A stretch of DNA of 64,000 nucleotides from Empedobacter falsenii. GTDB lineage: Bacteria; Bacteroidota; Bacteroidia; Flavobacteriales; Weeksellaceae. Below the pieces are notes generated by a model, which searched no databases, was not told the origin of the DNA, and worked only from the letters and a program-made list of their open reading frames with translations. Numbering within the stretch: the stretch's first letter is position 1; every line of letters begins with the position of its first letter. Where the stretch lies: assembly GCF_013488205.1 (NCBI RefSeq), contig NZ_CP040908.1, positions 2,978,001 through 3,042,000 on the forward strand, written 5' to 3'. Shown here piece by piece: positions 41,500 to 59,003 of this stretch. Made by a program: the position numbers and the translations under genes.

Positions 41500-41500
41500 A

Positions 41501-41526
41501 AAAGGCAAACAAACGTTTGCCTTTTT
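41501..41526. terminator. Bidirectional hairpin shared with the mobile element
   Basis: AAAAGGCAAAC, loop AAAC, GTTTGCCTTTT. Essentially the same hairpin with flanking ATAAAATAAC and CTTTATTG follows the YoeB genes at 48275-48300 and 55156-55181. It ends the RelE remnant and the convergent immunity gene. Confidence 0.8.
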
Positions 41527-41574
41527 CTTTATTGTGTATTATTTTATTTAAAATAATACGATTGGAAGAGTATC

Positions 41575-41796
41575 TTATTCAAGTACTACAGCATTGACAC
41601 CAATTTTATTAATTTCTTTAATAAAAAGATTACCTAATTCAATGTCATTAATTCTTATAATAACTTTTTTCCCATCTAATAGATTATCAACATTATTTTT
41701 TGATTCTTTTAAAGATAATTTTAATAAATCCATTTGCAATTTTGTTAAACATACTTTTTGGAATCCCTCATTCCAACTTTCTAATAATATTTCCAT
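41575..41796 (-). CDS. Probable immunity protein for the displaced Rhs tip (tip 2)
   Basis: The 73-residue protein has no signal peptide or membrane segment, so it is a small soluble protein. It has two regions, an amphipathic helix (LLESWNEGFQKVCLTKLQMDLLKLSLKES) and a beta/alpha part (GKKVIIRINDIELGNLFIKEIN). Its start overlaps the stop of the orphan Rhs tip by one base, the classical toxin-immunity arrangement. A soluble immunity protein fits a tip acting in the cytoplasm. The family is not recognised. Confidence 0.65.
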   Translation of the reverse strand: MEILLESWNEGFQKVCLTKLQMDLLKLSLKESKNNVDNLLDGKKVIIRINDIELGNLFIKEINKIGVNAVVLE

Positions 41797-42661
41797 TAAT
41801 TAACTGGTATTTTAATAGGTGAAGGTATTTGACCTTTATATTTACCTGTAGTTCTTTTACCTCCTTGTATAATAACTTCTTCTACTTTAAATTGTTTTCC
41901 TAAATCTTTTGCCATTTTCCATAAATTTTGACGACCAATTTGCCCTCCAGAAGAACCTTGAAGATGTAACTGATTTAAATGTAATTGATTTTCTTTTACA
42001 ATGAAATTAGTAACTCCTTCTACTGTCTCATTTCCTATTTTAGCAGTAAAAATCATTACATCATCCTCTATTTGAGCAATTTTAACTAAATTTTTCGCAA
42101 AGACAGCTGATTTTAATAATGACCAACCTCCATTTAAAAGTTTAAAACTTCCAATCGCTAAACCTCTTAAAGCTATCGCAGGACCAATTACATCAGTTTC
42201 TATTAAATTTAAGGAAGAAGGCCCTTTAATTCCATATGTTCTTAAAGTTCTTTCATGAGCACTTTCGGTAACATCTTTAGAATCTACTAATTTTCCATTT
42301 TCAAAAAGATAATCTTTATCATCGCCACCTAAATTATTAACTTTTTTATAGCCTCCATTTCCATCTCTTTCATAACCATTATCATTCCCATCTTTTGAAC
42401 CCCTTTCATGAGGAGGAATATACATTCCCATTTCATTATAACGGTTTCTACCCCATATATCTTGAGCCTCCATTCCGTCAGGATCAATCATATTGACAGG
42501 ATTATTTAGAACATAATTGTAAGGAGTTGTATTAATGAATTTCTCCGCGAGCGGGTCAATGTTAAACCATCTACCAATTGCAGGGTCATAGTTTCGTGCA
42601 CCGTAGTCGTACAGATTTAGGTTTAATTCATCCTGTAACTCTTTGCCGTTGTATTTGTATT
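41796..42661 (-). CDS. Orphan Rhs C-terminal tip, displaced original (tip 2)
   Basis: This frame has no Rhs N-terminus and no own promoter. It opens inside the 28-bp shared sequence with YNGKELQDELNLNLYDYGAR and continues with the Rhs core end NYDPAIGRWFNIDPLAEKF and the boundary motif DPDGMEA. It then goes into a variable tip of about 230 residues ending IQGGKRTTGKYKGQIPSPIK. The first Met is at 42491, after the core. The tip has no strong membrane segments and may be a nuclease-like toxin, but I cannot name its family. It differs completely from tip 1. It is best explained as the former end of the Rhs gene whose front part now lies at 56424-58992. Confidence 0.75.
42634..42661 (-). repeat. 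att-like direct repeat 1 (Rhs KYKYNGKELQ codons)
   Basis: A 28-bp sequence identical to 49515-49542 and 56396-56423. On the minus strand it encodes KYKYNGKELQ, the conserved Rhs core motif. It marks the distal end of the tandem elements; identity with the neighbouring element stops at 42633 on one side. It is the likely recombination core. Confidence 0.85.
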
Positions 42662-43027
42662 CCTACATCCCTATACACTTCAAATTTTCAACACTACTTC
42701 AATTTTAATGAACGCTTCATTATCACTCAAATATAGTAAATTTCAATTGAAAAAAAGATTTTTTATTGGATAAGCCAAGCCATTTTTCGGTTTTTATTTT
42801 TCCCTTCTTTTTTGCTGTCCTGCTTTTTGATACAAACAGACATTCACTCCGCGCTCCCCGTTCATTTACGCCAGCAAAAAACAAGGTAAGCTATTTAACA
42901 TAAAATTCCGTTCATTATAGGCGTTACAGCCCATAATTTATTTTATGTTTTCGCTCCGCAAATAGCCAAAATAACCCCGAAAAATGGCTTGTTTCGTTGT
43001 GTTTTTTTTCAATTGAAAGAAAAAGAA
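42662..43027. other. Non-coding end of the element, copy 1
   Basis: 365 bp between the att-like repeat and the first recombinase stop, without a credible gene. It has the palindrome TTTCAATTGAAA near each end (42741-42752 and 43007-43018). It also has a GCCATTTTTCGG segment (42780-42791) whose inverse lies near 42979-42990 and could form a long-range hairpin. Arm-type binding sites for the recombinases or an origin are possible contents. Confidence 0.5.
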
Positions 43028-43882
43028 CTATTGTAAAGGATGATGCTTGTCGATAGCATCTTGTAAGGCTTTGATTCCGGATTGTTTGTATTTCTCGGTT
43101 GTGTCCAGAAATTTATGCCCACAAAACAGCTGAACTGCCCGTAAATTATGCCCTTGACTGAGTAAATTAGTAATCACACTTTGTCTGATTTTAACTGAAG
43201 TTAATCGCTTATCAACTCCTTTTTGATAAGTCGATAACAGGTAATTGATGTCGTCTGCGGTGGTTGGACTTCCTAATTTATTGAGAATAAAATACGGTTG
43301 TTTTATTCGCTCTAATTCGGGTCGATCTTCCTGTAAATACTGATAAAATAAAAGGATTTGTTCTGCTTTTAAGGGCAAGGTTCTACTGTTGGTCATACCT
43401 GTTTCTCGGATGTAAATTTCTGCTTTTTCGAGGTCGATATCTTCGAGTAGAATTTGGGTAATTTCCTTGACCAAAACGGCTTGATGAACGAATAAACTCA
43501 GTATAATTTGATTGCGTTTGGCTAAAATAGGATAACGTTCTTTTCGTGGTTCAAGTAAGGTTTTCAGTTCTTTATCCGTCCATAAATCCTGTAATTGTAC
43601 GGCTGTTGGTTTTGCATCCCGAAGCTTGATAAAGTGTGCAGGATTATCTTTTCTGACCTCTATTTCAATCAGATAATCATAGTATTTTTTGAGGGCATAG
43701 ACCACACGTTTAATGGTTTTGGGTTGGTAACGATTCCGTAAAATCCCGATGTAGTGCATCAGCTGTGAATAGTGGCATTTTTCGTGATTTGGAAAGTGTT
43801 TTTTGAACCGATTGATCTCATATAAATAATTGCTAACAGTGCTTTTATGTAACTGTTTTTCAAGATAATTTTCTAAAGTCAT
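43028..43882 (-). CDS. Tyrosine recombinase-like protein lacking key catalytic residues, copy 1
   Basis: The 284-residue protein has the fold of a phage-type integrase: SAM-like N-terminal DNA-binding domain (TLENYLEKQLHKSTVSNYLYEI) and catalytic domain. Alignment with the neighbouring recombinase shows the first catalytic Arg replaced (AVLVKE, Leu137), the beta-hairpin Lys absent (TGMTNSRTLPL), and the His of HxxR replaced (Val230), while Arg233, GH at 255-256 and Tyr265 remain. It probably acts as an accessory or structural partner. Its start overlaps the end of the 290-residue recombinase gene by 23 bp, so the two are made together. Confidence 0.85.
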   Translation of the reverse strand: MTLENYLEKQLHKSTVSNYLYEINRFKKHFPNHEKCHYSQLMHYIGILRNRYQPKTIKRVVYALKKYYDYLIEIEVRKDNPAHFIKLRDAKPTAVQLQDLWTDKELKTLLEPRKERYPILAKRNQIILSLFVHQAVLVKEITQILLEDIDLEKAEIYIRETGMTNSRTLPLKAEQILLFYQYLQEDRPELERIKQPYFILNKLGSPTTADDINYLLSTYQKGVDKRLTSVKIRQSVITNLLSQGHNLRAVQLFCGHKFLDTTEKYKQSGIKALQDAIDKHHPLQ

Positions 43883-44732
43883 ACGGTTTTATTTTTGTGT
43901 AAATCTGTGTGGTACGCAGTAAATCATGTCCTAAAAAATCCCGAACCATTTCAACGGTCATTTCATTTTCAAGTAAATGTGTGGCAATGCTATGGCGCAG
44001 ATTGTGCAAGCTAAAGCCTTGTTTATCTAATCCCGAACGTTTTAAAACACCACTAAAAACAGTGTAAATCTTGTTTCCGCTCATTGGTTTTCCGTTTGGA
44101 TAAAGCAGTAAAATGGATTCATTTTCTCGTCTTTTTTTGGTTGTAATCAGGTACAACTTAAAATCCTCTACAAGCTTTGTTGTAAGCGGAATAACACGTC
44201 TTTTTTTTCCTTTTCCACTTCGAACATACAAACGTTTTTCAGTCAAATGAATATCTTCTACCGACAACTTTTCGACTTCTGTTCGCCTTAATCCACAGCC
44301 GTAACACAGGTTTAAAATCATCGTTTCGTCCAACGTTTCACAATTGCTGTAGAGTAGGGCAATTTGGTCGACACTTAAAACAGCTCGACTTTTATAGGCT
44401 GAACGTTTGATTTTTAACGTGTAAGGCGTTTTGATGAGTTGTTTTGTACGCAATAAATAGGCAAAGAACAAGCGAATCGCAAAGAGTTGAGAATGAATAT
44501 AACTGTTACTTAATGGCTTTTTTCGACGGCTACTAATCACCGTTTTCAAATGAAAATAAAAAGCTTCAATATGATGACTTTCAATGGTTGTGATGAGTTG
44601 ATGAGAATGCTCAAACAGGGCTTTGACGTGTTTAGGATAGTTGTCGACTATGTTTTTACAATAACCTAATTGCTGTAATTCTGTTCTAAATTCATCGAGT
44701 ATATCTTGCATGACTATGACGGGTTTGTTCAC
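43860..44732 (-). CDS. Tyrosine recombinase (integrase), intact, copy 1
   Basis: The 290-residue XerC/D-like protein has every catalytic residue: Arg149 in GLRRTE, Lys174 in RSGKGKKRR, His243 and Arg246 in LHNLRHS, His269 in FLGHD and Tyr278 in TTQIYT. The N-terminal core-binding domain is normal. It is the probable integration and excision enzyme of the element, acting at the 28-bp repeats. It is the first gene of a two-recombinase operon. About 190 bp of AT-rich sequence separates it from the primase gene upstream. Confidence 0.92.
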   Translation of the reverse strand: MNKPVIVMQDILDEFRTELQQLGYCKNIVDNYPKHVKALFEHSHQLITTIESHHIEAFYFHLKTVISSRRKKPLSNSYIHSQLFAIRLFFAYLLRTKQLIKTPYTLKIKRSAYKSRAVLSVDQIALLYSNCETLDETMILNLCYGCGLRRTEVEKLSVEDIHLTEKRLYVRSGKGKKRRVIPLTTKLVEDFKLYLITTKKRRENESILLLYPNGKPMSGNKIYTVFSGVLKRSGLDKQGFSLHNLRHSIATHLLENEMTVEMVRDFLGHDLLRTTQIYTKIKPYDFRKLS

Positions 44733-44924
44733 ATTGGTTTTTATTGTTTCTTATGGTGTTTACGAATCACTTTGTTAGATTTGAGGTTGTCTACTTTTGG
44801 AACATGGAACAATGGGATAGATTTAAGATGTTAGATTTTAGATTTCAGATAGTTAAGTCTAAAATAATTGTTCCAAGATTGTTCCTCATTGTTTCGTTCT
44901 CTCGTCGTACCTATCGTTTTACTT

Positions 44925-47234
44925 CTAATTTCGTACTTCTAACTTCTCAATTTGTAGCAGTATTTTTTCTTTAATAGTTTGTCTTAACTTCTGATAATCA
45001 TCCCAATAATCCACTCTATAAGCGATTTTACGCAAGTTTCCTGCATATTTACTGGTTAAGTATTCGAGTTCAATCAAGCTGTTCATGTAGCGTGAACACT
45101 GCGCTTTGCTCATGTTAAACGCCAAACGGATTTCTCGTTGGGTAAAATCGATTTCAGATCCATTTGCATTTTCTTTGTGTGCTTTTTTGGCTAAATAGGC
45201 TTTTAGTTTTTCAAAAAACTGACGCAAACTCCCGTCTAATTCATCCACTTTTAGCACAATACTTTCAAAAAGAACCTCCGTTGCTTGCTTTAAATCTTCC
45301 ACCTGTGTGATTAATTTTCCATCGTCTGTCAATTGTCTATTTTGCTGATTAATCAAGGTAATTTGGCGAACGATGCTTTGAAACATTTCGTTTAATCGTC
45401 TGATTTTATGCACTTCTTCGGGTAATTCTAATCGTGTTGCAAAGGGATTAATCACGTGATACGGCACAAGATTTCGGATGATATGTTGAACATCATGTTT
45501 GGTTTTTTCTTCGGATTGATGACTGACTTCGCCTGCATATTTTTGATTTTGATAGGCGATAATTCGGCGAGACTGTTCCTTACTTTCATCCACCGCCAAC
45601 AGAAAACTACGGCTCATATTATCTTCGTAAATCTCGCCTTTTGTCGTGGCAGACAGCGAACTAAACACGCCACGAACTTCTTTTTTAACGGCTTTGATAT
45701 TGCCTTTTTTATCTTTAATCGAGACAGAACTCGATAAACGTTGATTACTAATTAACTCTCGCATGGCAAACATGGCTTCTTCTTTTAAACCGTCTAAATC
45801 CTCGATAATCAGAAGCTTTCCGACTAATTCATATTCGCCCCAATTGTACAAACTACTTTCGGTAATTCGGGTAAAACGAAGTACATCTTCTTGTGGCATT
45901 AAATCGGCTATTTTACTGATTAAATGGGTTTTTCCACTGCCTGAACTTCCTTGTACAATGGCGTGTAGCGGATGTTTGGTTTTATATGAACTTGCAATGA
46001 TAAACAGTAATAATCGGCTATCTTGTTCGCCTACAATTCCGCTTTTTTCAATTAAATCATTCAATTGAAAAAATAAATCAGTGGTCATTTTAGGCTGTTC
46101 CAGAGGTGTTGGTACAGTTTCTTTTTCAATTGAAAAAGAAGGAGTAGAAGAAGAAAAATCAATTGATTTTCTTTTCTCTAAACAGCCTAAAACAGTGGCT
46201 TCATGGTAAGCGGTTAAGGTTTCGTTGACGTCTTTATCAAGCCATTCTACCGTAGAAAATGCTACTTTTAGATGAATCGTCTGAAGTAATTTTGCATACT
46301 TCAATGTCGCTGTTTGCCCCGCTTCATCTGTATCAAAACAGAAAATAATTTCTTCCAATTCATTTAGATTTTTGATTGCAGAAAGGATTTCGTTTGTTAA
46401 GCCATTCGTTCCAAAACAAGCAAGTATTTCATATTTTCGTAATTCTAAATTCGTACTTCGTAATTGGAGTAATGAAGCTGCATCAATAATACTTTCGGTT
46501 AAAATCAATTTTTTGGTTGTTGAACTTGGATAATTTGGATAAACTCCAGAACGATTTTTTAAGTAATAATGGTGAGCAGTGCTCACAGACGATTTATTCT
46601 TTTGACCACTTATAATCGATCTGAAGTAAAATGATACGGTCTGCCCGTGGCAGTTTTTGAGCGGAAAAACAAGGGATTTATTTCCGAATGGTTTATAGGA
46701 TTGTCCGCCTGTTTTGCTGTTTGTTCCGTAGGGAATTAATAAGCCTAATTCTACACATTGGTTGATTAATTTCTCGTCTTTTCTCGACCCATGATGGAAT
46801 TGTCCCGAGTTAAAGCCGACTTCTAATTCATCCACATTTAAGGCTCTGGAATGGCAATAGTTTTGAGCGGGTTCACTGCATAATAATCCTTTACGGAAAC
46901 TTAGAAACATCTTTTGTAGAAACGCTGAATGGTCTGCGATTTGAGGAATGCGGTTTGGTTCGTTTACCGCAAAACGCTCTTCGCCAGCCAAACTTTTACA
47001 CTTGTTTAGTGCTTCGTGTTTGCTCAATTTCTCATAATCTTGCACAAACTGAATGACATCGCCTGTTTTGGAACACGCATGACAATTGTAAAAATTCTTT
47101 TCCAAATTAACCTGTAAACTTGCCGTCTTATCCGAATGAAAAGGACATTTCAGCATATTGTTCTTAGGTTCTAATCCGTAATGATGTAGGATTTGAGATA
47201 ATGATAAGCGAGATTTTATTTCTTGGATTTTCAT
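44925..47234 (-). CDS. Primase-ATPase replication protein, copy 1
   Basis: The 769-residue protein starts with a DnaG-type CHC2 zinc finger (Cys30, His33, Cys51, Cys54 in LKCPFHSDKTASL and NCHACSKTGD). A TOPRIM domain follows (Glu247 in ILTESIIDAASLL and DTDEAG from 301). A P-loop ATPase comes next, with Walker A GSSGSGKTH (429-437) and Walker B LLIIEDLD (474-481). The C-terminus has a winged-helix-like part (TQREIRLAFNMSKAQCSRYM). Such primase/helicase-like proteins replicate phages, plasmids and integrative elements. Residues 259-269 and the last six residues are encoded by ACGAA/TTAGAA-type repeat sequence, apparently added in frame. It is divergent from xre. Confidence 0.88.
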   Translation of the reverse strand: MKIQEIKSRLSLSQILHHYGLEPKNNMLKCPFHSDKTASLQVNLEKNFYNCHACSKTGDVIQFVQDYEKLSKHEALNKCKSLAGEERFAVNEPNRIPQIADHSAFLQKMFLSFRKGLLCSEPAQNYCHSRALNVDELEVGFNSGQFHHGSRKDEKLINQCVELGLLIPYGTNSKTGGQSYKPFGNKSLVFPLKNCHGQTVSFYFRSIISGQKNKSSVSTAHHYYLKNRSGVYPNYPSSTTKKLILTESIIDAASLLQLRSTNLELRKYEILACFGTNGLTNEILSAIKNLNELEEIIFCFDTDEAGQTATLKYAKLLQTIHLKVAFSTVEWLDKDVNETLTAYHEATVLGCLEKRKSIDFSSSTPSFSIEKETVPTPLEQPKMTTDLFFQLNDLIEKSGIVGEQDSRLLLFIIASSYKTKHPLHAIVQGSSGSGKTHLISKIADLMPQEDVLRFTRITESSLYNWGEYELVGKLLIIEDLDGLKEEAMFAMRELISNQRLSSSVSIKDKKGNIKAVKKEVRGVFSSLSATTKGEIYEDNMSRSFLLAVDESKEQSRRIIAYQNQKYAGEVSHQSEEKTKHDVQHIIRNLVPYHVINPFATRLELPEEVHKIRRLNEMFQSIVRQITLINQQNRQLTDDGKLITQVEDLKQATEVLFESIVLKVDELDGSLRQFFEKLKAYLAKKAHKENANGSEIDFTQREIRLAFNMSKAQCSRYMNSLIELEYLTSKYAGNLRKIAYRVDYWDDYQKLRQTIKEKILLQIEKLEVRN

Positions 47235-47337
47235 TTGAAAAAATAATTAAAAAATTTTTACTAATCGTTTTCGCTTACAAACTTAGCGTTTTTGATTTTT
47301 AAAACAAATTCTTTTTGCTTTTTATTTTTCAACTGAA

Positions 47338-47397
47338 TTAGTTATTTCACTAACTAAATTGTAATTTTGTAGAGTATATAATACATACGTAGTATGT
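47338..47397 (+). promoter_or_regulatory. xre promoter and inverted repeats, copy 1
   Basis: TAATTTTG at 47362-47369 fits TAnnTTTG. It is flanked by two perfect inverted repeats: TTAGTTA with TAACTAA (47338-47357, 6-bp spacer) and ACATAC-GTA-GTATGT (47383-47397). They sit between the divergent primase and xre genes and are good candidates for Xre operators. Confidence 0.65.
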
Positions 47398-47414
47398 TTT
47401 AAAGTTTATTTGCT

Positions 47415-47762
47415 ATGGAAAATTTTGGAAAAAACTTGAAAGAATTAAGAAGCGGAAAAGGTTTTTCGCAAGAAGTGTTTGCTTCTAAGATTGGAGTTCA
47501 CGTGACAAATCTTTCTAAATACGAAAGAAATATTTCGATTCCATCTTTAGAAGTAGCGGAAAAAATGGCGAAAATTTTGTCAATTTCTTTAGACGAATTA
47601 GTTTACGGAAACAATAAAGCAGATGCTATTTTACAGGATAATCAGTTGTTGAATTTATTTGCAGAAACACAACAATTAAATGATAATCAAAAAAATACAA
47701 TCAAAGATTTATTAGAAGCTTTTATTTTAAAAAATAATCTGCAAAAACAATTAGCAATTTAA
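47415..47762 (+). CDS. Xre-family repressor, copy 1
   Basis: The 115-residue protein has an N-terminal Cro/C1-type HTH (NLKELRSGKGFSQEVFASKIGVHVTNLSKYERN, residues 7-40), then SIPSLEVAEKMAKILSISLDELVYG and a C-terminal helix for dimerisation. It is the first gene of a small operon with the toxin-antitoxin pair (20-bp gap). It faces the primase gene, so it may control both replication and the operon through the inverted repeats at 47338-47397. Confidence 0.9.
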   Translation: MENFGKNLKELRSGKGFSQEVFASKIGVHVTNLSKYERNISIPSLEVAEKMAKILSISLDELVYGNNKADAILQDNQLLNLFAETQQLNDNQKNTIKDLLEAFILKNNLQKQLAI

Positions 47763-47781
47763 TTACTTAAAAAATTAAATC

Positions 47782-48000
47782 ATGGCAACACAAGATATTT
47801 TTATTTTTGAACCCGACACATCTGAACAAGCAAAAGCTTTGAAAGCCTTTGCTAAAGCTCTAAAATTAAAGTTTGAGATAAAAGAAAGTCCTTATAACCA
47901 AGAGTTTGTAACTAAAATTGAAGAAAGCCAAAAACAAGCGAAAGAAGGTAAAGTTACACGTGTAAGAAAAGAGGATTTAAAAGATTTTTTAGGCTTATAA
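47782..48000 (+). CDS. Antitoxin of the YoeB-type pair, copy 1
   Basis: The 72-residue protein begins with a beta-strand-rich part (DIFIFEPDTSEQAKALKAFAKAL) and ends with a charged helix (KQAKEGKVTRVRKEDLKDFLGL). It resembles the DUF2683-type small proteins that precede RelE/YoeB toxins in Bacteroidota. It lies one base before the toxin gene and so is co-translated. It is expected to bind the toxin and repress the operon together with it. Confidence 0.82.
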   Translation: MATQDIFIFEPDTSEQAKALKAFAKALKLKFEIKESPYNQEFVTKIEESQKQAKEGKVTRVRKEDLKDFLGL

Positions 48001-48001
48001 G

Positions 48002-48268
48002 ATGGCTTTTGATTTAGATTTTACCGACAAAGCAAACGAAGATATCGGGCGTCACAAGAAAGCTGGTAACAAAGCTGTACTTAAAAAGATGCTTGTTCTT
48101 CTTGAGGAACTGACCGAACATCCTTTCTCTGGAACAGGAAAGCCAGAGCAACTGAAACACAATTTATCTGGTTTATGGTCGAGACGAATTAATCAAGAAC
48201 ACAGACTTGTCTATGAAGTGGAGCAAAATACTGTAACGATTCATTCTGCTTTTGGGCATTATTTATAA
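48002..48268 (+). CDS. YoeB/Txe-family mRNA interferase toxin, copy 1
   Basis: The 88-residue protein is a clear YoeB-type toxin: HPFSGTGKPEQLKHNLSGLWS, then SRRINQEHRLVYEV and SAFGHY at the end. The conserved Glu, Arg and C-terminal His-Tyr needed for ribosome-dependent mRNA cleavage are present. With its antitoxin it probably stabilises the element against loss. A hairpin follows at 48275-48300. Confidence 0.93.
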   Translation: MAFDLDFTDKANEDIGRHKKAGNKAVLKKMLVLLEELTEHPFSGTGKPEQLKHNLSGLWSRRINQEHRLVYEVEQNTVTIHSAFGHYL

Positions 48269-48274
48269 AATAAC

Positions 48275-48300
48275 AAAAGGCAAACAAACGTTTGCCTTTT
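48275..48300. terminator. Bidirectional terminator, copy 1
   Basis: AAAAGGCAAAC, loop AAAC, GTTTGCCTTTT, directly after the toxin gene and facing the end of the immunity gene. The same hairpin occurs at 41501-41526 outside the element. Confidence 0.8.
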
Positions 48301-48353
48301 GCTTTATTGAGAATGTTGGGTTGTTTTCCGGCAACACATCTGATACACTACCA

Positions 48354-48713
48354 TTATTTTGATTTTAGTAATTCAACACTATATACAAACGATACAAAGC
48401 TAATTGTTATATAAATTAACAAATATAGGTAACCTATAAAAGAGGATTGAAAATTATAAACTTCATACTGCTTTTTTCTTATATAGTTATTTATAATTAA
48501 GAATAATCCTAAACAAAATAAAATAACTGGAATAATATAATTTTTATTAGGATAATGATTCTTCATTAGAATATAATTTATTAATGTTAAAATATTCATC
48601 CAAAGCATTATTGTGAAAAATACTGATGTTGTAAATGTTGAAACATCTTGATTACCTACTTTTTTTTGGAATTCAATAAAGTGGAATATGATGTAGTTTA
48701 AAATTTTTTTCAT
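48354..48713 (-). CDS. Membrane immunity protein for Rhs tip 1, copy 1
   Basis: The 119-residue protein is strongly hydrophobic with about three to four transmembrane segments (TTSVFFTIMLWMNILTLINYI, YIIPVILFCLGLFLII, FIGYLYLLIYITISFVSFVYSV). Its start overlaps the stop of the tip gene, the usual toxin-immunity order. A membrane-embedded immunity protein fits a toxin that attacks the inner membrane. The family is not recognised. Confidence 0.75.
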   Translation of the reverse strand: MKKILNYIIFHFIEFQKKVGNQDVSTFTTSVFFTIMLWMNILTLINYILMKNHYPNKNYIIPVILFCLGLFLIINNYIRKKQYEVYNFQSSFIGYLYLLIYITISFVSFVYSVELLKSK

Positions 48714-49542
48714 TATTGAGTGGGTTTTTCAAATAGATCCTTACCTGATGAATATTCATATATTGCCTTACCTCCAAAATAAATCAAGGAGGCTCCTGCA
48801 CCAAATGGTCCTAAAAAACCTACACCGCTCATTATCATATCTACAGTAAACTCCGTGCCAGAGATTTGACCTGAGCCATACTGATAAATTGATACAACAG
48901 CACCTACTCCAGCTAAAGCATTTCCTGATATTTTAAGAACTTTTGCAGCTGATGCAACTTTTGAAGTTTTGATTGCTGAATTTAAAAGTGATGTTCTATA
49001 ACTAGGACGAGTATATTCATCTAAAATTGTAAAATTAACTGTAGATTTAGTTTTAAGAGCTTTATCTAAATAAGATGTAGTTTTGGCAATTCCTTGTTCT
49101 AAACCTAAAGAAGTCAAATCATAATATTTATTATTTAAAATACCATCAATAAACTCATATTGAGGTATATAACTATTCGTGTTAGATTCTTTTTTATTAC
49201 TATTTGTCACAGTAGTTTCAGCTAGCTGTATTACTGCACTTACAGTATTTGTTTCAGTATCATAAACATATTCATTATTAGGATCATCAATAAAAGGTTT
49301 AAATTCTGGAGTTTTTGGACAAGTAGGGCAAGTTTCAATATTTTGTTCAAATAAGCCAGTTGGATCAGAAAAATAAATTGGATTGTTAAAAGAGAAACGA
49401 TAAGGAGTCCAATCAGGCATTACTTCAGCAAGTCCATCCTGAGACATAAATCTACCTATTGAAGCATCATAATTTCTGAAGTCCATAGCAGTCCAATTAA
49501 GACCTAATTCTTCTTGTAACTCTTTGCCGTTGTATTTGTATT
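48713..49542 (-). CDS. Orphan Rhs tip 1 (duplicate, without N-terminal part)
   Basis: It is identical to the last 276 or so codons of the full Rhs gene at 55594-58992 but begins at the att-like repeat and has no Rhs front part or promoter. The first Met is at 49486 (MDFRNYDASIGRFMSQDG), after the KYKYNGKELQ site. It contains the boundary motif DPTGLF and a tip of about 213 residues with a glycine-rich hydrophobic stretch (VGAVVSIYQYGSGQISG and MSGVGFLGPFGAGASLIYF). It is a silent or poorly expressed reserve copy unless recombined to a front part. Confidence 0.75.
49515..49542 (-). repeat. att-like direct repeat 2
   Basis: The same 28 bp as 42634-42661 and 56396-56423, at the junction of the two tandem elements. 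Recombination with either neighbour would release one 6,881-bp circle. Confidence 0.85.
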
Positions 49543-51613: not shown

Positions 51614-51805
51614 ATTGGTTTTTATTGTTTCTTATGGTGTTTACGAATCACTTTGTTAGATTTGAGGTTGTCTACTTTTGGAACATGGAACAATGGGATA
51701 GATTTAAGATGTTAGATTTTAGATTTCAGATAGTTAAGTCTAAAATAATTGTTCCAAGATTGTTCCTCATTGTTTCGTTCTCTCGTCGTACCTATCGTTT
51801 TACTT

Positions 51806-54115
51806 CTAATTTCGTACTTCTAACTTCTCAATTTGTAGCAGTATTTTTTCTTTAATAGTTTGTCTTAACTTCTGATAATCATCCCAATAATCCACTCTAT
51901 AAGCGATTTTACGCAAGTTTCCTGCATATTTACTGGTTAAGTATTCGAGTTCAATCAAGCTGTTCATGTAGCGTGAACACTGCGCTTTGCTCATGTTAAA
52001 CGCCAAACGGATTTCTCGTTGGGTAAAATCGATTTCAGATCCATTTGCATTTTCTTTGTGTGCTTTTTTGGCTAAATAGGCTTTTAGTTTTTCAAAAAAC
52101 TGACGCAAACTCCCGTCTAATTCATCCACTTTTAGCACAATACTTTCAAAAAGAACCTCCGTTGCTTGCTTTAAATCTTCCACCTGTGTGATTAATTTTC
52201 CATCGTCTGTCAATTGTCTATTTTGCTGATTAATCAAGGTAATTTGGCGAACGATGCTTTGAAACATTTCGTTTAATCGTCTGATTTTATGCACTTCTTC
52301 GGGTAATTCTAATCGTGTTGCAAAGGGATTAATCACGTGATACGGCACAAGATTTCGGATGATATGTTGAACATCATGTTTGGTTTTTTCTTCGGATTGA
52401 TGACTGACTTCGCCTGCATATTTTTGATTTTGATAGGCGATAATTCGGCGAGACTGTTCCTTACTTTCATCCACCGCCAACAGAAAACTACGGCTCATAT
52501 TATCTTCGTAAATCTCGCCTTTTGTCGTGGCAGACAGCGAACTAAACACGCCACGAACTTCTTTTTTAACGGCTTTGATATTGCCTTTTTTATCTTTAAT
52601 CGAGACAGAACTCGATAAACGTTGATTACTAATTAACTCTCGCATGGCAAACATGGCTTCTTCTTTTAAACCGTCTAAATCCTCGATAATCAGAAGCTTT
52701 CCGACTAATTCATATTCGCCCCAATTGTACAAACTACTTTCGGTAATTCGGGTAAAACGAAGTACATCTTCTTGTGGCATTAAATCGGCTATTTTACTGA
52801 TTAAATGGGTTTTTCCACTGCCTGAACTTCCTTGTACAATGGCGTGTAGCGGATGTTTGGTTTTATATGAACTTGCAATGATAAACAGTAATAATCGGCT
52901 ATCTTGTTCGCCTACAATTCCGCTTTTTTCAATTAAATCATTCAATTGAAAAAATAAATCAGTGGTCATTTTAGGCTGTTCCAGAGGTGTTGGTACAGTT
53001 TCTTTTTCAATTGAAAAAGAAGGAGTAGAAGAAGAAAAATCAATTGATTTTCTTTTCTCTAAACAGCCTAAAACAGTGGCTTCATGGTAAGCGGTTAAGG
53101 TTTCGTTGACGTCTTTATCAAGCCATTCTACCGTAGAAAATGCTACTTTTAGATGAATCGTCTGAAGTAATTTTGCATACTTCAATGTCGCTGTTTGCCC
53201 CGCTTCATCTGTATCAAAACAGAAAATAATTTCTTCCAATTCATTTAGATTTTTGATTGCAGAAAGGATTTCGTTTGTTAAGCCATTCGTTCCAAAACAA
53301 GCAAGTATTTCATATTTTCGTAATTCTAAATTCGTACTTCGTAATTGGAGTAATGAAGCTGCATCAATAATACTTTCGGTTAAAATCAATTTTTTGGTTG
53401 TTGAACTTGGATAATTTGGATAAACTCCAGAACGATTTTTTAAGTAATAATGGTGAGCAGTGCTCACAGACGATTTATTCTTTTGACCACTTATAATCGA
53501 TCTGAAGTAAAATGATACGGTCTGCCCGTGGCAGTTTTTGAGCGGAAAAACAAGGGATTTATTTCCGAATGGTTTATAGGATTGTCCGCCTGTTTTGCTG
53601 TTTGTTCCGTAGGGAATTAATAAGCCTAATTCTACACATTGGTTGATTAATTTCTCGTCTTTTCTCGACCCATGATGGAATTGTCCCGAGTTAAAGCCGA
53701 CTTCTAATTCATCCACATTTAAGGCTCTGGAATGGCAATAGTTTTGAGCGGGTTCACTGCATAATAATCCTTTACGGAAACTTAGAAACATCTTTTGTAG
53801 AAACGCTGAATGGTCTGCGATTTGAGGAATGCGGTTTGGTTCGTTTACCGCAAAACGCTCTTCGCCAGCCAAACTTTTACACTTGTTTAGTGCTTCGTGT
53901 TTGCTCAATTTCTCATAATCTTGCACAAACTGAATGACATCGCCTGTTTTGGAACACGCATGACAATTGTAAAAATTCTTTTCCAAATTAACCTGTAAAC
54001 TTGCCGTCTTATCCGAATGAAAAGGACATTTCAGCATATTGTTCTTAGGTTCTAATCCGTAATGATGTAGGATTTGAGATAATGATAAGCGAGATTTTAT
54101 TTCTTGGATTTTCAT
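51806..54115 (-). CDS. Primase-ATPase replication protein, copy 2
   Basis: Identical to 44925-47234: CHC2 zinc finger, TOPRIM, P-loop ATPase and C-terminal winged-helix-like region. No frameshift separates the copies, so both can be functional. Its presence in an element of under 7 kb points to autonomous replication of an excised circle, or to replicative spread. Confidence 0.88.
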   Translation of the reverse strand: MKIQEIKSRLSLSQILHHYGLEPKNNMLKCPFHSDKTASLQVNLEKNFYNCHACSKTGDVIQFVQDYEKLSKHEALNKCKSLAGEERFAVNEPNRIPQIADHSAFLQKMFLSFRKGLLCSEPAQNYCHSRALNVDELEVGFNSGQFHHGSRKDEKLINQCVELGLLIPYGTNSKTGGQSYKPFGNKSLVFPLKNCHGQTVSFYFRSIISGQKNKSSVSTAHHYYLKNRSGVYPNYPSSTTKKLILTESIIDAASLLQLRSTNLELRKYEILACFGTNGLTNEILSAIKNLNELEEIIFCFDTDEAGQTATLKYAKLLQTIHLKVAFSTVEWLDKDVNETLTAYHEATVLGCLEKRKSIDFSSSTPSFSIEKETVPTPLEQPKMTTDLFFQLNDLIEKSGIVGEQDSRLLLFIIASSYKTKHPLHAIVQGSSGSGKTHLISKIADLMPQEDVLRFTRITESSLYNWGEYELVGKLLIIEDLDGLKEEAMFAMRELISNQRLSSSVSIKDKKGNIKAVKKEVRGVFSSLSATTKGEIYEDNMSRSFLLAVDESKEQSRRIIAYQNQKYAGEVSHQSEEKTKHDVQHIIRNLVPYHVINPFATRLELPEEVHKIRRLNEMFQSIVRQITLINQQNRQLTDDGKLITQVEDLKQATEVLFESIVLKVDELDGSLRQFFEKLKAYLAKKAHKENANGSEIDFTQREIRLAFNMSKAQCSRYMNSLIELEYLTSKYAGNLRKIAYRVDYWDDYQKLRQTIKEKILLQIEKLEVRN

Positions 54116-54218
54116 TTGAAAAAATAATTAAAAAATTTTTACTAATCGTTTTCGCTTACAAACTTAGCGTTTTTGATTTTTAAAACAAATTCTTTTTGCT
54201 TTTTATTTTTCAACTGAA

Positions 54219-54278
54219 TTAGTTATTTCACTAACTAAATTGTAATTTTGTAGAGTATATAATACATACGTAGTATGT
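54219..54278 (+). promoter_or_regulatory. xre promoter and inverted repeats, copy 2
   Basis: Same arrangement as 47338-47397: TTAGTTA/TAACTAA, TAATTTTG at 54243-54250, and ACATAC-GTA-GTATGT at 54264-54278, between the divergent primase and xre genes. Confidence 0.65.
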
Positions 54279-54295
54279 TTTAAAGTTTATTTGCT

Positions 54296-54643
54296 ATGGA
54301 AAATTTTGGAAAAAACTTGAAAGAATTAAGAAGCGGAAAAGGTTTTTCGCAAGAAGTGTTTGCTTCTAAGATTGGAGTTCACGTGACAAATCTTTCTAAA
54401 TACGAAAGAAATATTTCGATTCCATCTTTAGAAGTAGCGGAAAAAATGGCGAAAATTTTGTCAATTTCTTTAGACGAATTAGTTTACGGAAACAATAAAG
54501 CAGATGCTATTTTACAGGATAATCAGTTGTTGAATTTATTTGCAGAAACACAACAATTAAATGATAATCAAAAAAATACAATCAAAGATTTATTAGAAGC
54601 TTTTATTTTAAAAAATAATCTGCAAAAACAATTAGCAATTTAA
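54296..54643 (+). CDS. Xre-family repressor, copy 2
   Basis: Identical to the 115-residue protein at 47415-47762, with the HTH at residues 7-40. Because the copies are identical, each repressor will act on both control regions, so element gene dosage is buffered. Confidence 0.9.
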   Translation: MENFGKNLKELRSGKGFSQEVFASKIGVHVTNLSKYERNISIPSLEVAEKMAKILSISLDELVYGNNKADAILQDNQLLNLFAETQQLNDNQKNTIKDLLEAFILKNNLQKQLAI

Positions 54644-54662
54644 TTACTTAAAAAATTAAATC

Positions 54663-54881
54663 ATGGCAACACAAGATATTTTTATTTTTGAACCCGACAC
54701 ATCTGAACAAGCAAAAGCTTTGAAAGCCTTTGCTAAAGCTCTAAAATTAAAGTTTGAGATAAAAGAAAGTCCTTATAACCAAGAGTTTGTAACTAAAATT
54801 GAAGAAAGCCAAAAACAAGCGAAAGAAGGTAAAGTTACACGTGTAAGAAAAGAGGATTTAAAAGATTTTTTAGGCTTATAA
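54663..54881 (+). CDS. Antitoxin of the YoeB-type pair, copy 2
   Basis: Identical to 47782-48000. It is co-transcribed with xre upstream and with the toxin gene one base downstream. The duplicate supplies antitoxin even if one element excises. Confidence 0.82.
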   Translation: MATQDIFIFEPDTSEQAKALKAFAKALKLKFEIKESPYNQEFVTKIEESQKQAKEGKVTRVRKEDLKDFLGL

Positions 54882-54882
54882 G

Positions 54883-55149
54883 ATGGCTTTTGATTTAGAT
54901 TTTACCGACAAAGCAAACGAAGATATCGGGCGTCACAAGAAAGCTGGTAACAAAGCTGTACTTAAAAAGATGCTTGTTCTTCTTGAGGAACTGACCGAAC
55001 ATCCTTTCTCTGGAACAGGAAAGCCAGAGCAACTGAAACACAATTTATCTGGTTTATGGTCGAGACGAATTAATCAAGAACACAGACTTGTCTATGAAGT
55101 GGAGCAAAATACTGTAACGATTCATTCTGCTTTTGGGCATTATTTATAA
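54883..55149 (+). CDS. YoeB/Txe-family toxin, copy 2
   Basis: Identical to 48002-48268, with the YoeB core HPFSGTGKPEQL and the C-terminal SAFGHY. It converges with the immunity gene of Rhs tip 1 across the hairpin at 55156-55181. Confidence 0.93.
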   Translation: MAFDLDFTDKANEDIGRHKKAGNKAVLKKMLVLLEELTEHPFSGTGKPEQLKHNLSGLWSRRINQEHRLVYEVEQNTVTIHSAFGHYL

Positions 55150-55155
55150 AATAAC

Positions 55156-55181
55156 AAAAGGCAAACAAACGTTTGCCTTTT
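55156..55181. terminator. Bidirectional terminator, copy 2
   Basis: The same hairpin as at 48275-48300 (AAAAGGCAAAC / GTTTGCCTTTT), between the toxin gene and the immunity gene. Confidence 0.8.
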
Positions 55182-55234
55182 GCTTTATTGAGAATGTTGG
55201 GTTGTTTTCCGGCAACACATCTGATACACTACCA

Positions 55235-55594
55235 TTATTTTGATTTTAGTAATTCAACACTATATACAAACGATACAAAGCTAATTGTTATATAAATTAA
55301 CAAATATAGGTAACCTATAAAAGAGGATTGAAAATTATAAACTTCATACTGCTTTTTTCTTATATAGTTATTTATAATTAAGAATAATCCTAAACAAAAT
55401 AAAATAACTGGAATAATATAATTTTTATTAGGATAATGATTCTTCATTAGAATATAATTTATTAATGTTAAAATATTCATCCAAAGCATTATTGTGAAAA
55501 ATACTGATGTTGTAAATGTTGAAACATCTTGATTACCTACTTTTTTTTGGAATTCAATAAAGTGGAATATGATGTAGTTTAAAATTTTTTTCAT
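55235..55594 (-). CDS. Membrane immunity protein for Rhs tip 1, copy 2
   Basis: Identical to 48354-48713. Here it directly follows the full-length Rhs gene, its start overlapping the Rhs stop by one base, so it is the immunity protein expressed with the active toxin. Three to four transmembrane segments suggest it protects at the inner membrane. Confidence 0.78.
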   Translation of the reverse strand: MKKILNYIIFHFIEFQKKVGNQDVSTFTTSVFFTIMLWMNILTLINYILMKNHYPNKNYIIPVILFCLGLFLIINNYIRKKQYEVYNFQSSFIGYLYLLIYITISFVSFVYSVELLKSK

Positions 55595-58500
55595 TATTGA
55601 GTGGGTTTTTCAAATAGATCCTTACCTGATGAATATTCATATATTGCCTTACCTCCAAAATAAATCAAGGAGGCTCCTGCACCAAATGGTCCTAAAAAAC
55701 CTACACCGCTCATTATCATATCTACAGTAAACTCCGTGCCAGAGATTTGACCTGAGCCATACTGATAAATTGATACAACAGCACCTACTCCAGCTAAAGC
55801 ATTTCCTGATATTTTAAGAACTTTTGCAGCTGATGCAACTTTTGAAGTTTTGATTGCTGAATTTAAAAGTGATGTTCTATAACTAGGACGAGTATATTCA
55901 TCTAAAATTGTAAAATTAACTGTAGATTTAGTTTTAAGAGCTTTATCTAAATAAGATGTAGTTTTGGCAATTCCTTGTTCTAAACCTAAAGAAGTCAAAT
56001 CATAATATTTATTATTTAAAATACCATCAATAAACTCATATTGAGGTATATAACTATTCGTGTTAGATTCTTTTTTATTACTATTTGTCACAGTAGTTTC
56101 AGCTAGCTGTATTACTGCACTTACAGTATTTGTTTCAGTATCATAAACATATTCATTATTAGGATCATCAATAAAAGGTTTAAATTCTGGAGTTTTTGGA
56201 CAAGTAGGGCAAGTTTCAATATTTTGTTCAAATAAGCCAGTTGGATCAGAAAAATAAATTGGATTGTTAAAAGAGAAACGATAAGGAGTCCAATCAGGCA
56301 TTACTTCAGCAAGTCCATCCTGAGACATAAATCTACCTATTGAAGCATCATAATTTCTGAAGTCCATAGCAGTCCAATTAAGACCTAATTCTTCTTGTAA
56401 CTCTTTGCCGTTGTATTTGTATTTATAGTTAGTATTCGCAAGATTGGTATTGTTGTATCCACTATGTTTCAATCCAAAAGGATAATAGTTGTTCTCCTCC
56501 AATATTTTTAACGAGCCATTTGCTTCTTTTTGATAACTCAATCTTACATTACCCAAATGATCGGTGTAATTGTAAACATAATTAAATGTTGTACCATCTG
56601 TTACATTTACATAGCCTTCTGCTGTTGGAAAAAATTGTAATACACTATTTTGATACTGAAAACCTCCTAAGTAATCTGTAGTGGTCACTGTAGTACCATC
56701 TGTTACAACCTTTCTTAGCTTAACTCCACTTGCATCGTACGTATAGTTAATCTTTTTGGATGCATTCCAAAGAACTTCTGTTGGTAAATTTAAGTAATTA
56801 TACGTAATTGCTGTTATTTCTTTGTTTAAATCTTTGGTAAGATTACCATTAAGATCATATTTGTAATCATTTTTAGGATCTTCAATTGTTGTTCCGCTGT
56901 ATTTATTCTTATCAGCGAAACCATCTTCTGTTCTGTTGTCAGAAACATTAAGAAGTTTATTCGAATTAGCTTGATAATCGTATGTTAAATCATCGATTGT
57001 AAATAGATTATTGTTCAATAAGTTTCCATTACGTGTAAAACCTTTTATATTCCCATTATAATCGTAGCCTTTTACATATTCATTATAAGCACCAACATTG
57101 GTAGAACCTCCTATAAAACCAGTTTGTATTACAGCAAAATCTGCCGTTAACAGTCGATTTAATCCATCATAATCAAATCTATAGGTTTTATATGAATCTT
57201 GTTCATTGGTTTTCCAAGAAACTCCAGATATATTTCCATTGAAATGAGAACCGTAGTTGATATTAAATGAAAATAATTTTGGTCTAATAGCTTGTTCTAC
57301 ATCGTTTATATCTGTTAACCAACCTCTAATATTATACTTATAATCTACCGTTTGTAATGGATTAGAAGCAACCGTGTTTCCAACTTTCTTACTCGTCAAC
57401 TGATTGATTTCGTTGTACGAATTTTGAACAATGTATTCTATTGCACCATTATTAATTTGGTGTGTTTGATACTTTAATAATTCATTCTCATAATATTCAA
57501 AACCTTCATTGATTGTTATTTCTGCTCCTATATCCGTTGGTTTGTGCTTGGTAACTGTATGCTTAACCTTTCCTCTAAAATCTAAAATAGATGCGGTTGT
57601 TTGATATCCTTTCAAATAATTATCTAAGTGAGAAGCTACTGGACGAATATATTTCGAATCATAATATGTATACGCTTTGTTCCACGTTGCAGTACCTAAT
57701 ACATTGGTATAACTTGCAACAGCTAAACCTTTGGTTTTTGTATCATCAACCCCAACAACTTTTTGATTATCTATAGACGAAGGTGTAACACCTAAATTTT
57801 GATAATGATCGTAATAATTAACAGATTGAACGGTTAAGCTTCCGTTAGGAAATTGCGCATTGGTATAGAAAATATTTTGTCCATTATTAGCAAATACAGT
57901 TGGTACTCTTTCTTCATTATTAGCCGTTTTTTTATTGTTCAAAGCGGTTTGCATTGAACCTCGTGTCGCTGTATTTTTAAAGAAACCTGAATACACCATT
58001 CTTCCAAATTTATCGTATTTAAAGAAAGTCCATCCTTTTTCAACTGCCGTTCGTTGATTGATATCTTGTTGTAAGGTTAAACGATCTTGGTTATCATACA
58101 CCATAAATTCACGTCCTTTTCCAGGAAGTTGTTTTTCAACTAACCTGTTCTTTTCATCATAAAAATATTGATAACCTAATTCGGCAAGATTATTTCTGTA
58201 AGAATTGATATTTCCATAATCGGTATTTATTAATTGTGGTGGAAGAACAAAGGTTAAATTACCATAAATATCGTACACGTAATACGTATCATGATTACCA
58301 GACGAATTTAAAGGAGCTACTGTTTTTGATTCGATGTGAATTCTTTTCAGAACAACTCTCCCTTCTTTGTCTTTAAATTCCTCAATAGGTTGACCATTCT
58401 CATCTGTTGTAATCGTTTTATATAAAGCTCCTCCTGAATATGTTATAGAATTACTTAACGTTAAAGTTGGATTGGTAGTAGGATCTGCTACGCCAAAATT

Positions 58501-58992
58501 AAAAACTTCTCCATCTGAATTTGTTGCATATTGAAATCCTATCTCATGACCTGCTCCTTTCATCCAGTCTCTTCCTGGAGCAGCCTGAAATAACACTCGG
58601 TTTAAAGGTGAATTCTCAAATGTTTTTTCTGAATAAGGAATATAGTCTCCTGTCGTTTCTAAGTAAAAAGTATCTCCTGTTGCTCCAGTATTTAGTTGAT
58701 TACTTGCTCCAGAAATAGGAAAAGGCAAATATTCTTTGGCTTGACGCCCAAAACCATCATATTCAAATGGTGTTACAATCGTATTACCTGTAGGTGAAGC
58801 ACCTACTTGCAAGGCTTGTTTTTCACGTCCTAGACCATCAAAATAAACAACAGTTTCTTTCTTTTCAGAACAATCGGCTTTTAAACATTCGACTGTTTTA
58901 ATGTAATTCTCCGTAGAGGTTTGTGCATATACACTACCACTTCCTAAAGTCAGAAGCGTACCGTATATAAAATTTTTATAAAAGTGTTTCAT
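55594..58992 (-). CDS. Secreted Rhs polymorphic toxin, full length
   Basis: The 1132-residue protein has a Sec signal peptide (NFIYGTLLTLGSGSVYAQ), a DUF6443-like N-terminal region (VVYFDGLGREKQALQVGAS, EYLPFP) and a long series of YD/Rhs repeats (for example YDYNGNIKGFTRNGN, YKYDLNGNLTKDLNK). The conserved core motif KYKYNGKELQ is at residues 857-866, and the boundary DPTGLF at 916-921. The last 213 residues are a variable tip with glycine-rich hydrophobic hairpins, suggesting a membrane-active toxin. From the KYKYNGKELQ codons onward the sequence belongs to mobile element copy 2. There is no PAAR or VgrG link, so this is not a T6SS effector of the usual kind. The operon partners are the Rhs-like protein and a T9SS cargo protein. 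Confidence 0.88.
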   Translation of the reverse strand: MKHFYKNFIYGTLLTLGSGSVYAQTSTENYIKTVECLKADCSEKKETVVYFDGLGREKQALQVGASPTGNTIVTPFEYDGFGRQAKEYLPFPISGASNQLNTGATGDTFYLETTGDYIPYSEKTFENSPLNRVLFQAAPGRDWMKGAGHEIGFQYATNSDGEVFNFGVADPTTNPTLTLSNSITYSGGALYKTITTDENGQPIEEFKDKEGRVVLKRIHIESKTVAPLNSSGNHDTYYVYDIYGNLTFVLPPQLINTDYGNINSYRNNLAELGYQYFYDEKNRLVEKQLPGKGREFMVYDNQDRLTLQQDINQRTAVEKGWTFFKYDKFGRMVYSGFFKNTATRGSMQTALNNKKTANNEERVPTVFANNGQNIFYTNAQFPNGSLTVQSVNYYDHYQNLGVTPSSIDNQKVVGVDDTKTKGLAVASYTNVLGTATWNKAYTYYDSKYIRPVASHLDNYLKGYQTTASILDFRGKVKHTVTKHKPTDIGAEITINEGFEYYENELLKYQTHQINNGAIEYIVQNSYNEINQLTSKKVGNTVASNPLQTVDYKYNIRGWLTDINDVEQAIRPKLFSFNINYGSHFNGNISGVSWKTNEQDSYKTYRFDYDGLNRLLTADFAVIQTGFIGGSTNVGAYNEYVKGYDYNGNIKGFTRNGNLLNNNLFTIDDLTYDYQANSNKLLNVSDNRTEDGFADKNKYSGTTIEDPKNDYKYDLNGNLTKDLNKEITAITYNYLNLPTEVLWNASKKINYTYDASGVKLRKVVTDGTTVTTTDYLGGFQYQNSVLQFFPTAEGYVNVTDGTTFNYVYNYTDHLGNVRLSYQKEANGSLKILEENNYYPFGLKHSGYNNTNLANTNYKYKYNGKELQEELGLNWTAMDFRNYDASIGRFMSQDGLAEVMPDWTPYRFSFNNPIYFSDPTGLFEQNIETCPTCPKTPEFKPFIDDPNNEYVYDTETNTVSAVIQLAETTVTNSNKKESNTNSYIPQYEFIDGILNNKYYDLTSLGLEQGIAKTTSYLDKALKTKSTVNFTILDEYTRPSYRTSLLNSAIKTSKVASAAKVLKISGNALAGVGAVVSIYQYGSGQISGTEFTVDMIMSGVGFLGPFGAGASLIYFGGKAIYEYSSGKDLFEKPTQ
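56396..56423 (-). repeat. att-like direct repeat 3, inside the active Rhs gene
   Basis: The same 28 bp as repeats 1 and 2, here in frame within the full-length Rhs gene (codons 857-866). Sequence upstream in the gene (from 56424) is unique in the window. It is the proximal boundary of the inserted elements. Confidence 0.85.
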
Positions 58993-59003
58993 CTCGCTAT
59001 AGC

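Follow-up and report, generated by a model that had tools for sequence, protein, structure and literature searches.

How may a polymorphic toxin gene of the Rhs type exchange its tip while its trunk stays in place? The question is raised by a locus of Empedobacter falsenii contained in a stretch of 64,000 nucleotides (NCBI RefSeq assembly GCF_013488205.1, contig NZ_CP040908.1, positions 2,978,001 to 3,042,000 of the forward strand), which is called the window below and in which positions are counted from its first letter. In this locus a full Rhs gene is continuous with a 6,881-bp unit, and a second, different Rhs tip lies beyond the unit. An original prediction, made from the DNA letters without database searches, took the unit for a mobile element that swaps the tip of the resident Rhs gene. 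The analysis described here makes it very probable that such units are integrative elements of Bacteroidota that use the trunk-tip junction of toxin genes as attachment site, and that their insertion swaps the tip and moves the old one downstream.

Identity at a lag of 6,881 bp is unbroken across positions 42634–49542 (6,909 bp, or 6,881 + 28), with zero mismatches. The unit is present twice, head-to-tail and identical in sequence, and is bounded by three identical 28-bp words (AATACAAATACAACGGCAAAGAGTTACA, minus strand; exact copies at 42634–42661, 49515–49542 and 56396–56423), the next-best match to which in the window has 8 mismatches. Each unit contains tip 1, a gene for a protein of 119 amino acids, a DUF2683/YoeB pair, a repressor of the RstR family, a CHC2-Toprim primase that includes a P-loop part, and a pair of tyrosine recombinases. 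The tandem, its 28-bp boundaries and its gene content had all been described beforehand and were confirmed by the lag identity, the exact repeats and the domain calls. The features of the locus, read from the Rhs trunk downwards and followed by the genes upstream of it, are:

56424–58992, minus strand: trunk of the resident Rhs gene, which carries DUF6443, RHS repeat, the initial part of the RHS core and, by eye, a signal peptide, and runs to the first putative attachment site; related trunks in E. falsenii L034 and G008 L182
56396–56423, minus strand: 28-bp repeat copy 1, junction of resident trunk and element
55594–56395, minus strand: remainder of the RHS core with tip 1 (copy A), continuing the reading frame of the trunk; the tip has homologues elsewhere
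55235–55594, minus strand: putative immunity gene 1, copy A, 119 amino acids, hydrophobic by eye; stays beside tip 1 in L190 and L191
54883–55149, plus strand: YoeB-type toxin of the toxin-antitoxin pair, copy A
54663–54881, plus strand: DUF2683 protein, putative antitoxin, copy A
54296–54643, plus strand: Xre repressor, RstR family, copy A (87.7 bits, cut-off 80)
51806–54115, minus strand: CHC2-Toprim primase with C-terminal P-loop part (read from the sequence), copy A
50741–51613, minus strand: IntA, tyrosine recombinase with a complete R-K-H-R-H-Y set, copy A
49909–50763, minus strand: IntB, second tyrosine recombinase, degenerate active site, copy A
49515–49542, minus strand: 28-bp repeat copy 2, junction of element and element
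48713–49514, minus strand: tip 1, copy B, trunkless, with a stop codon immediately before the repeat
48354–48713, minus strand: putative immunity gene 1, copy B
47415–48268, plus strand: Xre repressor (47415–47762), DUF2683 (47782–48000) and YoeB (48002–48268), copy B
44925–47234, minus strand: primase-ATPase, copy B
43860–44732, minus strand: IntA, copy B
43028–43882, minus strand: IntB, copy B
42634–42661, minus strand: 28-bp repeat copy 3, junction of element and displaced tip
41796–42633, minus strand: orphan tip 2, displaced, together with its share of the RHS core, in the codon phase of the trunk; its last 100 amino acids recur in G322, G246 and G312
41575–41796, minus strand: putative immunity gene 2, 73 amino acids; follows the tip 2 homologue in L192, L193 and L194
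59004–63805, minus strand: genes upstream of the Rhs gene, a 1094-residue RHS/YD-repeat protein and a 504-residue protein with a type A sorting domain of the type IX secretion system (T9SS)

The locus has the make-up of an Rhs polymorphic toxin locus, namely RHS repeats and an RHS-associated core ahead of a variable tip, with a small gene after the tip (TIGR03696 at 3.1e-14 and DUF6443 at 7.5e-36, the RHS repeat scoring under its cut-off), and no phage structural gene was present among the scanned genes of the window. Compared with its own genome, the whole Rhs protein gives three matches, the Rhs gene of the window and two truncated copies. The Rhs open reading frame (55594–58992, minus strand) passes uninterrupted through the 28-bp word into tip 1, copy 1 of the word lying inside this intact gene, and copy 3 opens the orphan tip 2 with its own small gene. 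The locus had been drawn as 41796–58992, an interval that does enclose the Rhs gene, the units and tip 2; its true end is 41575, because the small gene behind tip 2 occupies 41575–41796. The same 28 bp stand at all three boundaries, as had been claimed, but the statement that they encode KYKYNGKELQ each time needs amending: the word begins at codon base 2, the leading K is encoded only in the resident copy, and the other two copies read stop-E-YKYNGKELQ. A degenerate DNA pattern for KYKYNGKELQ accordingly has the resident copy as its sole match in the genome, because the other copies diverge before the repeat. The codon phase of the repeat is by arithmetic identical (phase 1) in the trunk, tip 1 and tip 2. 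The proposal that excision of both units would restore tip 2 therefore holds in frame on paper; the reversal itself and a renewed expression of tip 2 are events that such a phase would permit.

Relatives of the element were collected by one scan of 84,980 species genomes with an alignment of the primase, in which 113 loci were confirmed and the best 80 retained, leaving 73 loci (some overlapping on one contig: L065 with L068, L092 with L094). All but two of these (71 of 73) are labelled Bacteroidota; one label of Bacillota and one of Microcaldota belong to metagenome-assembled genomes and are suspected to reflect misbinning. In an even draw of 395 Bacteroidota genomes, the own genome counted, 12 have the primase at an E value of 1e-60 or better. 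A protein search of a plasmid collection brought up two finished plasmids with relatives, pAT2 of Aureibacter tunicatorum and one of Aureispira sp. CCB-E; among the 20 matches listed of 114, their primases are 48 and 42% identical to that of the window, and the other 18 are primases at 25–28%. On both plasmids a full Rhs gene is followed by a small gene, a helix-turn-helix (HTH) gene, a primase, two recombinases and then a different Rhs-type tip, in tandem units of 8,169 bp (Aureibacter) and 7,652 bp (Aureispira).

The arrangement of Rhs cores around the elements was followed with a 114-position RHS core model, built from 29 sequences of loci later examined. Cores, primases and recombinases were mapped on 76 loci, giving 96 primase rows, of which 13 near-copies, flagged solely by identical first 300 primase bases, were excluded from the non-duplicate counts. 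Among the 53 rows that reach 3 kb or more upstream, 51 have a same-strand core on that side (39 of 40 once near-copies are removed), and none has one on the opposite strand. Downstream, a same-strand core, mostly truncated at its N-terminus at a conserved motif, follows in 43 of 53 rows with at least 1.5 kb of context (36 of 46 without near-copies), and the non-duplicate downstream cores start at model positions 34–46 (18 cases), 69–76 (13), 55–58 (1), 27 or less (2) and 80 or more (2). The core is followed by an open frame of at least 100 amino acids in 27 of 27 non-duplicate full-core elements, in 20 of which a trunk frame of at least 200 amino acids stands in front or the contig start is reached. 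Ahead of the displaced cores (n = 39) the open frame has a median length of 3 codons and in no case reaches 100. This architecture supports the predicted course of events, in which insertion would replace the expressed tip in frame and retain the old tip and its immunity gene downstream.

Nine further genomes came from the phylum draw, two of the 11 others found there being in the set already (L052, L104). Six of the nine have the Rhs arrangement with a same-strand core upstream; in five of these six a further core follows within 3 kb downstream, and in four it starts at model positions 18–21, a few residues before YYPFG. Within the genus, pieces of both window flanks (within 37205–41549 and 56331–63853) align in genome G008 around a full Rhs gene (L182) of 1,166 amino acids with one downstream gene, and no primase or recombinase match was obtained at this locus. 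Since the flanks align in pieces and the tip differs from tip 2, L182 is to be read as an empty locus and not as the exact state before insertion. In E. falsenii, L034 has a related trunk (69% identical) whose tip and small gene are different ones, together with an HTH gene and the beginning of an element primase. The original prediction would entail that the unit also be met at further Rhs genes, with different tips, and that the genus include an orthologous site without it; both were found among relatives.

At the junctions, the left side (trunk/tip) and the right side (element end/displaced tip) share a run of 28 bp in the window, 8 in Aureibacter, 6 in Aureispira, 14 in L089 and 11 in L124. 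Judged by eye, the runs of one group start at the bases for Y-x-Y or Y-x-F just before NGKE, and those of another sit around TTGACCC, at DPLAE. Trees were built by a quick method from 35 IntA and 36 IntB rows, excluding the 30 of 66 elements without a located right junction and fragments of 230 amino acids or less. In both trees all 13 DPLAE-site elements fall into one supported group of 15 (97 and 99% in the Shimodaira-Hasegawa-like approximate likelihood ratio test, SH-aLRT), and most NGKE-site elements lie outside it; the trees require 4 and 3 changes of the NGKE label, versus shuffled means of 12.0 and 12.4, and 0 of 500 shuffles were as low. Short direct repeats at both ends and a fixed target position, with two exceptions to the clade rule, are what is expected of a tyrosine-recombinase element. 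Integration at the Rhs motif is hence upheld by comparison, the relatives' junctions sitting at Rhs motifs that track the recombinase clade, and the recombinases would be its agents. That the site differs between recombinase clades goes beyond the original prediction, as does a relative inside a toxin-like gene with no detected Rhs domain. In IntA each of the six R-K-H-R-H-Y residues is kept in 64 or 65 of 65 sequences; in IntB, Arg I is absent in 57 of 65 and the nucleophile Tyr is replaced by Phe in 5 of 65. We infer from these residues that IntA would cut and IntB assist. A recombinase-end motif near GTTGTGCAGG at the right ends was read off the same sequences and reached p ≤ 0.05 in 15 of 32, and no claim is made for it.

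Related backbones were met almost always with unrelated tips. The 62 tips of non-duplicate elements form 54 clusters, 47 of them singletons (E value 1e-4, a small set), and related tips occur in 1 of 81 element pairs whose primases are at least 70% identical over more than 300 amino acids. In 9 of 10 close pairs the backbone DNA becomes homologous no earlier than 911 bp ahead of the primase start and no later than 43 bp past it; from the core to this point the sequences do not match, so that the tip is excluded from the homology. The tips of the window have relatives of their own. Tip 1 and its small gene recur in G221 in an orphan-length frame (75 and 83%) and in G263 (67 and 71%), here in a frame of 995 codons whose trunk is 38% identical. 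For tip 2, the C-terminal 100 amino acids and the small gene are met again in G322, where they close a full Rhs frame of 1,227 codons with a 38%-identical trunk, and in shorter orphan frames of 303 codons (G246) and 358 codons (G312). The stretches fetched around these homologues gave no primase or recombinase match. The window tips have no toxin match in Pfam or NCBIfam, the tip 2 profile has no convincing match in the PDB, and the structure model of the tip 2 domain is poor (predicted local distance difference test, pLDDT, 62.7); tip toxicity and immunity by the small genes are putative. We also would like to point out a terminator-like palindrome of 50 bp that follows the small genes of both tips (94% alike; 41490–41539, 48265–48314 and 55146–55195), of which weaker copies (73–87%) occur in an orphan array of G008 (L181). 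The element may have picked up its cargo from a resident orphan array carrying such words.

The anatomy of the locus, its exact boundaries and common codon phase, the architecture of the relatives, the clade-specific sites, the diversity of tips and the unoccupied locus, all of them read in DNA sequence, suggest the following course. The attachment site would be a short, conserved part of the RHS core that immediately precedes the variable tip, and in a circular form of the element this site would stand directly ahead of a trunkless tip and its immunity gene. IntA, with its degenerate partner IntB, would recombine the circle, in a single orientation, into the corresponding part of a resident Rhs gene, joining the element tip in frame to the resident trunk; by this fusion the toxin would gain a start codon, a promoter and a delivery module. 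The former tip and its immunity gene would be left behind the element as an orphan. The primase-ATPase may serve copy number, the repressor quiescence and the toxin-antitoxin pair maintenance, and a tandem would result from repeated integration or from integration of a multimer. A wider statement, which we hold tentatively and at somewhat less than even chances, is that these elements form a class that re-arms polymorphic toxins: its sites would be the trunk-tip junctions of Rhs genes and, judging by the units of genome G526, of other secreted toxins, the toxin would be silent in the circle and live after integration, the weakened second recombinase would set the direction, and tandems would make the choice of tip reversible. 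The element may thus answer how Rhs weapons change their tips, with a recombinase pair, a short site and a circle-sized unit laid out in sequence across many lineages of one phylum. The structure of the locus can in addition guide searches for the tip-immunity pairs with which bacteria compete, and the recombinases may join DNA at conserved motifs within a coding frame.

Several observations weigh against the proposed integrative element. The core model was seeded from the same loci that were then examined. No downstream core was detected in 10 of 53 rows: the misses at L073 and L088 look like sites beyond the core model, one row of L091 is masked by Ns and the contig of L056 stops at the motif, and six (L063, L101, L107, L111, L113 and L122) stay unexplained. 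Seven of the 27 full-core elements have no long trunk frame ahead, and three of the nine new genomes (G526, G486 and G386) lack the Rhs arrangement. In G526, tandem 8,534-bp units lie at an 8-bp repeat (TGAATTGG) in a target gene without an Rhs domain by Pfam or NCBIfam; the element end (L223 15791–16435, L224 10329–11135) encodes a signal peptide in frame with the displaced, HNH-like tip, both as judged by eye, and the old tip may therefore remain secreted. The G486 element adjoins a 2,120-residue protein that ends in an AHH nuclease domain, with no right junction found, and the G386 element is broken, with no toxin seen. L095 and L097 break the match of clade and site (in L095 the scored core, 2.5 kb away from the recombinases, is perhaps not the junction), and in the pair L104/L124 homology starts within the primase. 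With the active site of IntB degenerate, two fully active recombinases cannot be assumed. The tandem could be a RecA amplification, and the circle, the excised site and recombinase activity are deduced from sequence.

How the element behaves once inserted bears on a further reading, an extension compatible with the integrative element proposed here, by which it is a reversible switch, excising and reinserting so frequently that tips differ between the cells of one culture. The three sites in the same phase speak for it, as do tandems in several loci and a Belliella filtrata contig (7,668 bp) that ends in its own first 299 bp, its 7,369-bp unit starting at the site and fitting either a circle or a tandem (several other contigs start at the motif); the genome collections compared hold one genome per species, and frequent switching is possible rather than probable. 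We consider it unlikely, though compatible with the favoured mechanism, that the unit is a generic integrative element or satellite for which the RHS core is a safe, conserved target whose 3′ end it supplies, tip diversity being a by-product. The backbone genes are typical of small integrative elements and satellites, and integrases that replace the 3′ end of their target gene are known, as with e14 in icd; yet the 3′ end supplied here is not equivalent to the old one, given 62 tips in 54 clusters, and close backbones differ over the entire stretch from core to primase. This account and the favoured one are hard to separate except by selection, and both may be true.

Exact identity over 6,881 bp would also be expected from misassembly, and the tandem of the window may be an artefact of assembly or culture around a real single copy. 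Repeated units were, however, found in ten further loci (L050, L051, L067–L069, L073, L075, L083, L094 and L100), with small length differences between copies in L075, L083 and L094, and in the single-contig chromosomes G526 and G665. An assembly error, which the original prediction had named as a way in which it could fail, is made very unlikely by these tandems and by those of the two finished plasmids. Runs of 6–14 bp, such as those shared at the relatives' junctions, are too short for RecA, the junction codon is predicted by the recombinase clade, backbones 77–91% alike sit on trunks just 64–73% alike (three pairs), and an opposite-strand core occurs in 0 of 53 upstream contexts. These findings, with breakpoints clustered at motifs by recombinase clade rather than core fragments of varying length joined over long identical core, leave as the least likely account an ordinary Rhs C-terminal displacement by homologous recombination, in which the recombinases and the primase would be passengers and RecA would have made both insertion and tandem, even though the published model is a displacement via a circle by homologous recombination (PMC2935791, in its available text), trunk-core fragments without primase matches exist in the genus and RecA is capable of producing an exact tandem.

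Other candidate classes were set aside. A phage origin is unsupported, the phage collection giving 215 records, none spanning 80% of the primase query, and viral contigs 3 weak primase relatives with 32–39% identity in the best segment. The reading as a defence island was dropped, PADLOC returning primase and HTH cross-matches only. Gamma-mobile-trio islands (GmtY/GmtZ) do not fit, with IntA at 32.1 of 340 and 14.9 of 600 bits, under the cut-offs, nor do Xer-dependent elements (integrative mobile elements exploiting Xer, IMEX, and CTX), given two recombinases of the element's own and insertion inside a coding motif, dif itself not having been searched for.

Some further arrangements were seen in and around such loci. 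Non-identical elements are stacked in one Rhs locus in L065, L057 and L059, in the latter two apparently via different sites. The element of L113 (7829–9427, 9986–14644) has no Rhs core detected within 4.5 kb upstream, and the gene ahead of it ends like a T9SS sorting domain, by eye. In the window, the protein with a T9SS type A sorting domain (62291–63805, minus strand; TIGR04183 at 6.7e-15) heads the Rhs gene cluster, a position that may be a sign of delivery through the T9SS. At 35767–37649 (minus strand), some 4 kb away from the Rhs locus, a 365-residue protein matching the solved nuclease-deactivated Cas12f 9n9c (E value 4.4e-148) lies directly behind a sigma-70-like factor. Beside this dCas12f-sigma pair, the stretches 37650–38340 and 39320–39900 are without long open reading frames and duplicated at lags of about 1,572 and 1,624 bp, and could hold guide RNA genes. 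The longest exact word common to 37650–41100 and 41101–64000 has 16 nucleotides, which is no evidence of targeting.

Each part of the proposed mechanism has a counterpart among known systems. In e14-type elements a tyrosine-recombinase element enters a coding gene and rebuilds its 3′ end, and they share with the present case an integrase, a short repeat at both junctions and an element-borne 3′ end; here the end supplied is a different tip with its own small gene, and insertion should therefore alter the function of the gene. Shufflons and the invertases of phage tail-fibre genes likewise alter the C-terminus of one protein by site-specific recombination, but they flip resident segments, whereas here a mobile element would bring the new end, with the old one retained behind it. 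Integron cassettes resemble the units in being added by a recombinase at a fixed expression point, newest first; the units differ in carrying their own recombinases and in joining in frame inside a coding sequence, with no separate integrase platform. CTX-phi-like tandem prophages have in common with them an RstR-family repressor, small size and tandem copies, but here the element's own recombinases would replace the host XerCD, and phage structural genes were absent among the genes scanned.

The closest precedent is Rhs C-terminal displacement, for which the available text of Jackson et al. 2009 (PMC2935791) describes tips displaced into a silent downstream position and postulates a circular intermediate. 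As here, a new tip is placed on an old core and the old tip lies silent downstream; the difference is that here a dedicated recombinase pair and a short site would act, in Bacteroidota. Integrase genes near Rhs loci of the bee-gut bacteria Snodgrassella and Gilliamella have been suspected of moving toxin genes (2017, PMC5727410), a suspicion only, and in Proteobacteria, for which the accessible part of that paper names neither an attachment site nor the limits of an element. Recombinases of the XerC/D type next to polyimmunity loci (2012, PMC3482391) and 26 orphan tips among the accessory genes of Ornithobacterium (PMC13183296) are mentioned in the portions available of two other papers. No earlier description of such an element was found in searches of a library of open-licence papers from PubMed Central (PMC), and subscription papers and preprints could hold one. 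What is new is that two known habits, that of integrases which rebuild the 3′ end of a gene and that of Rhs tips which are displaced, are joined in one dedicated element.

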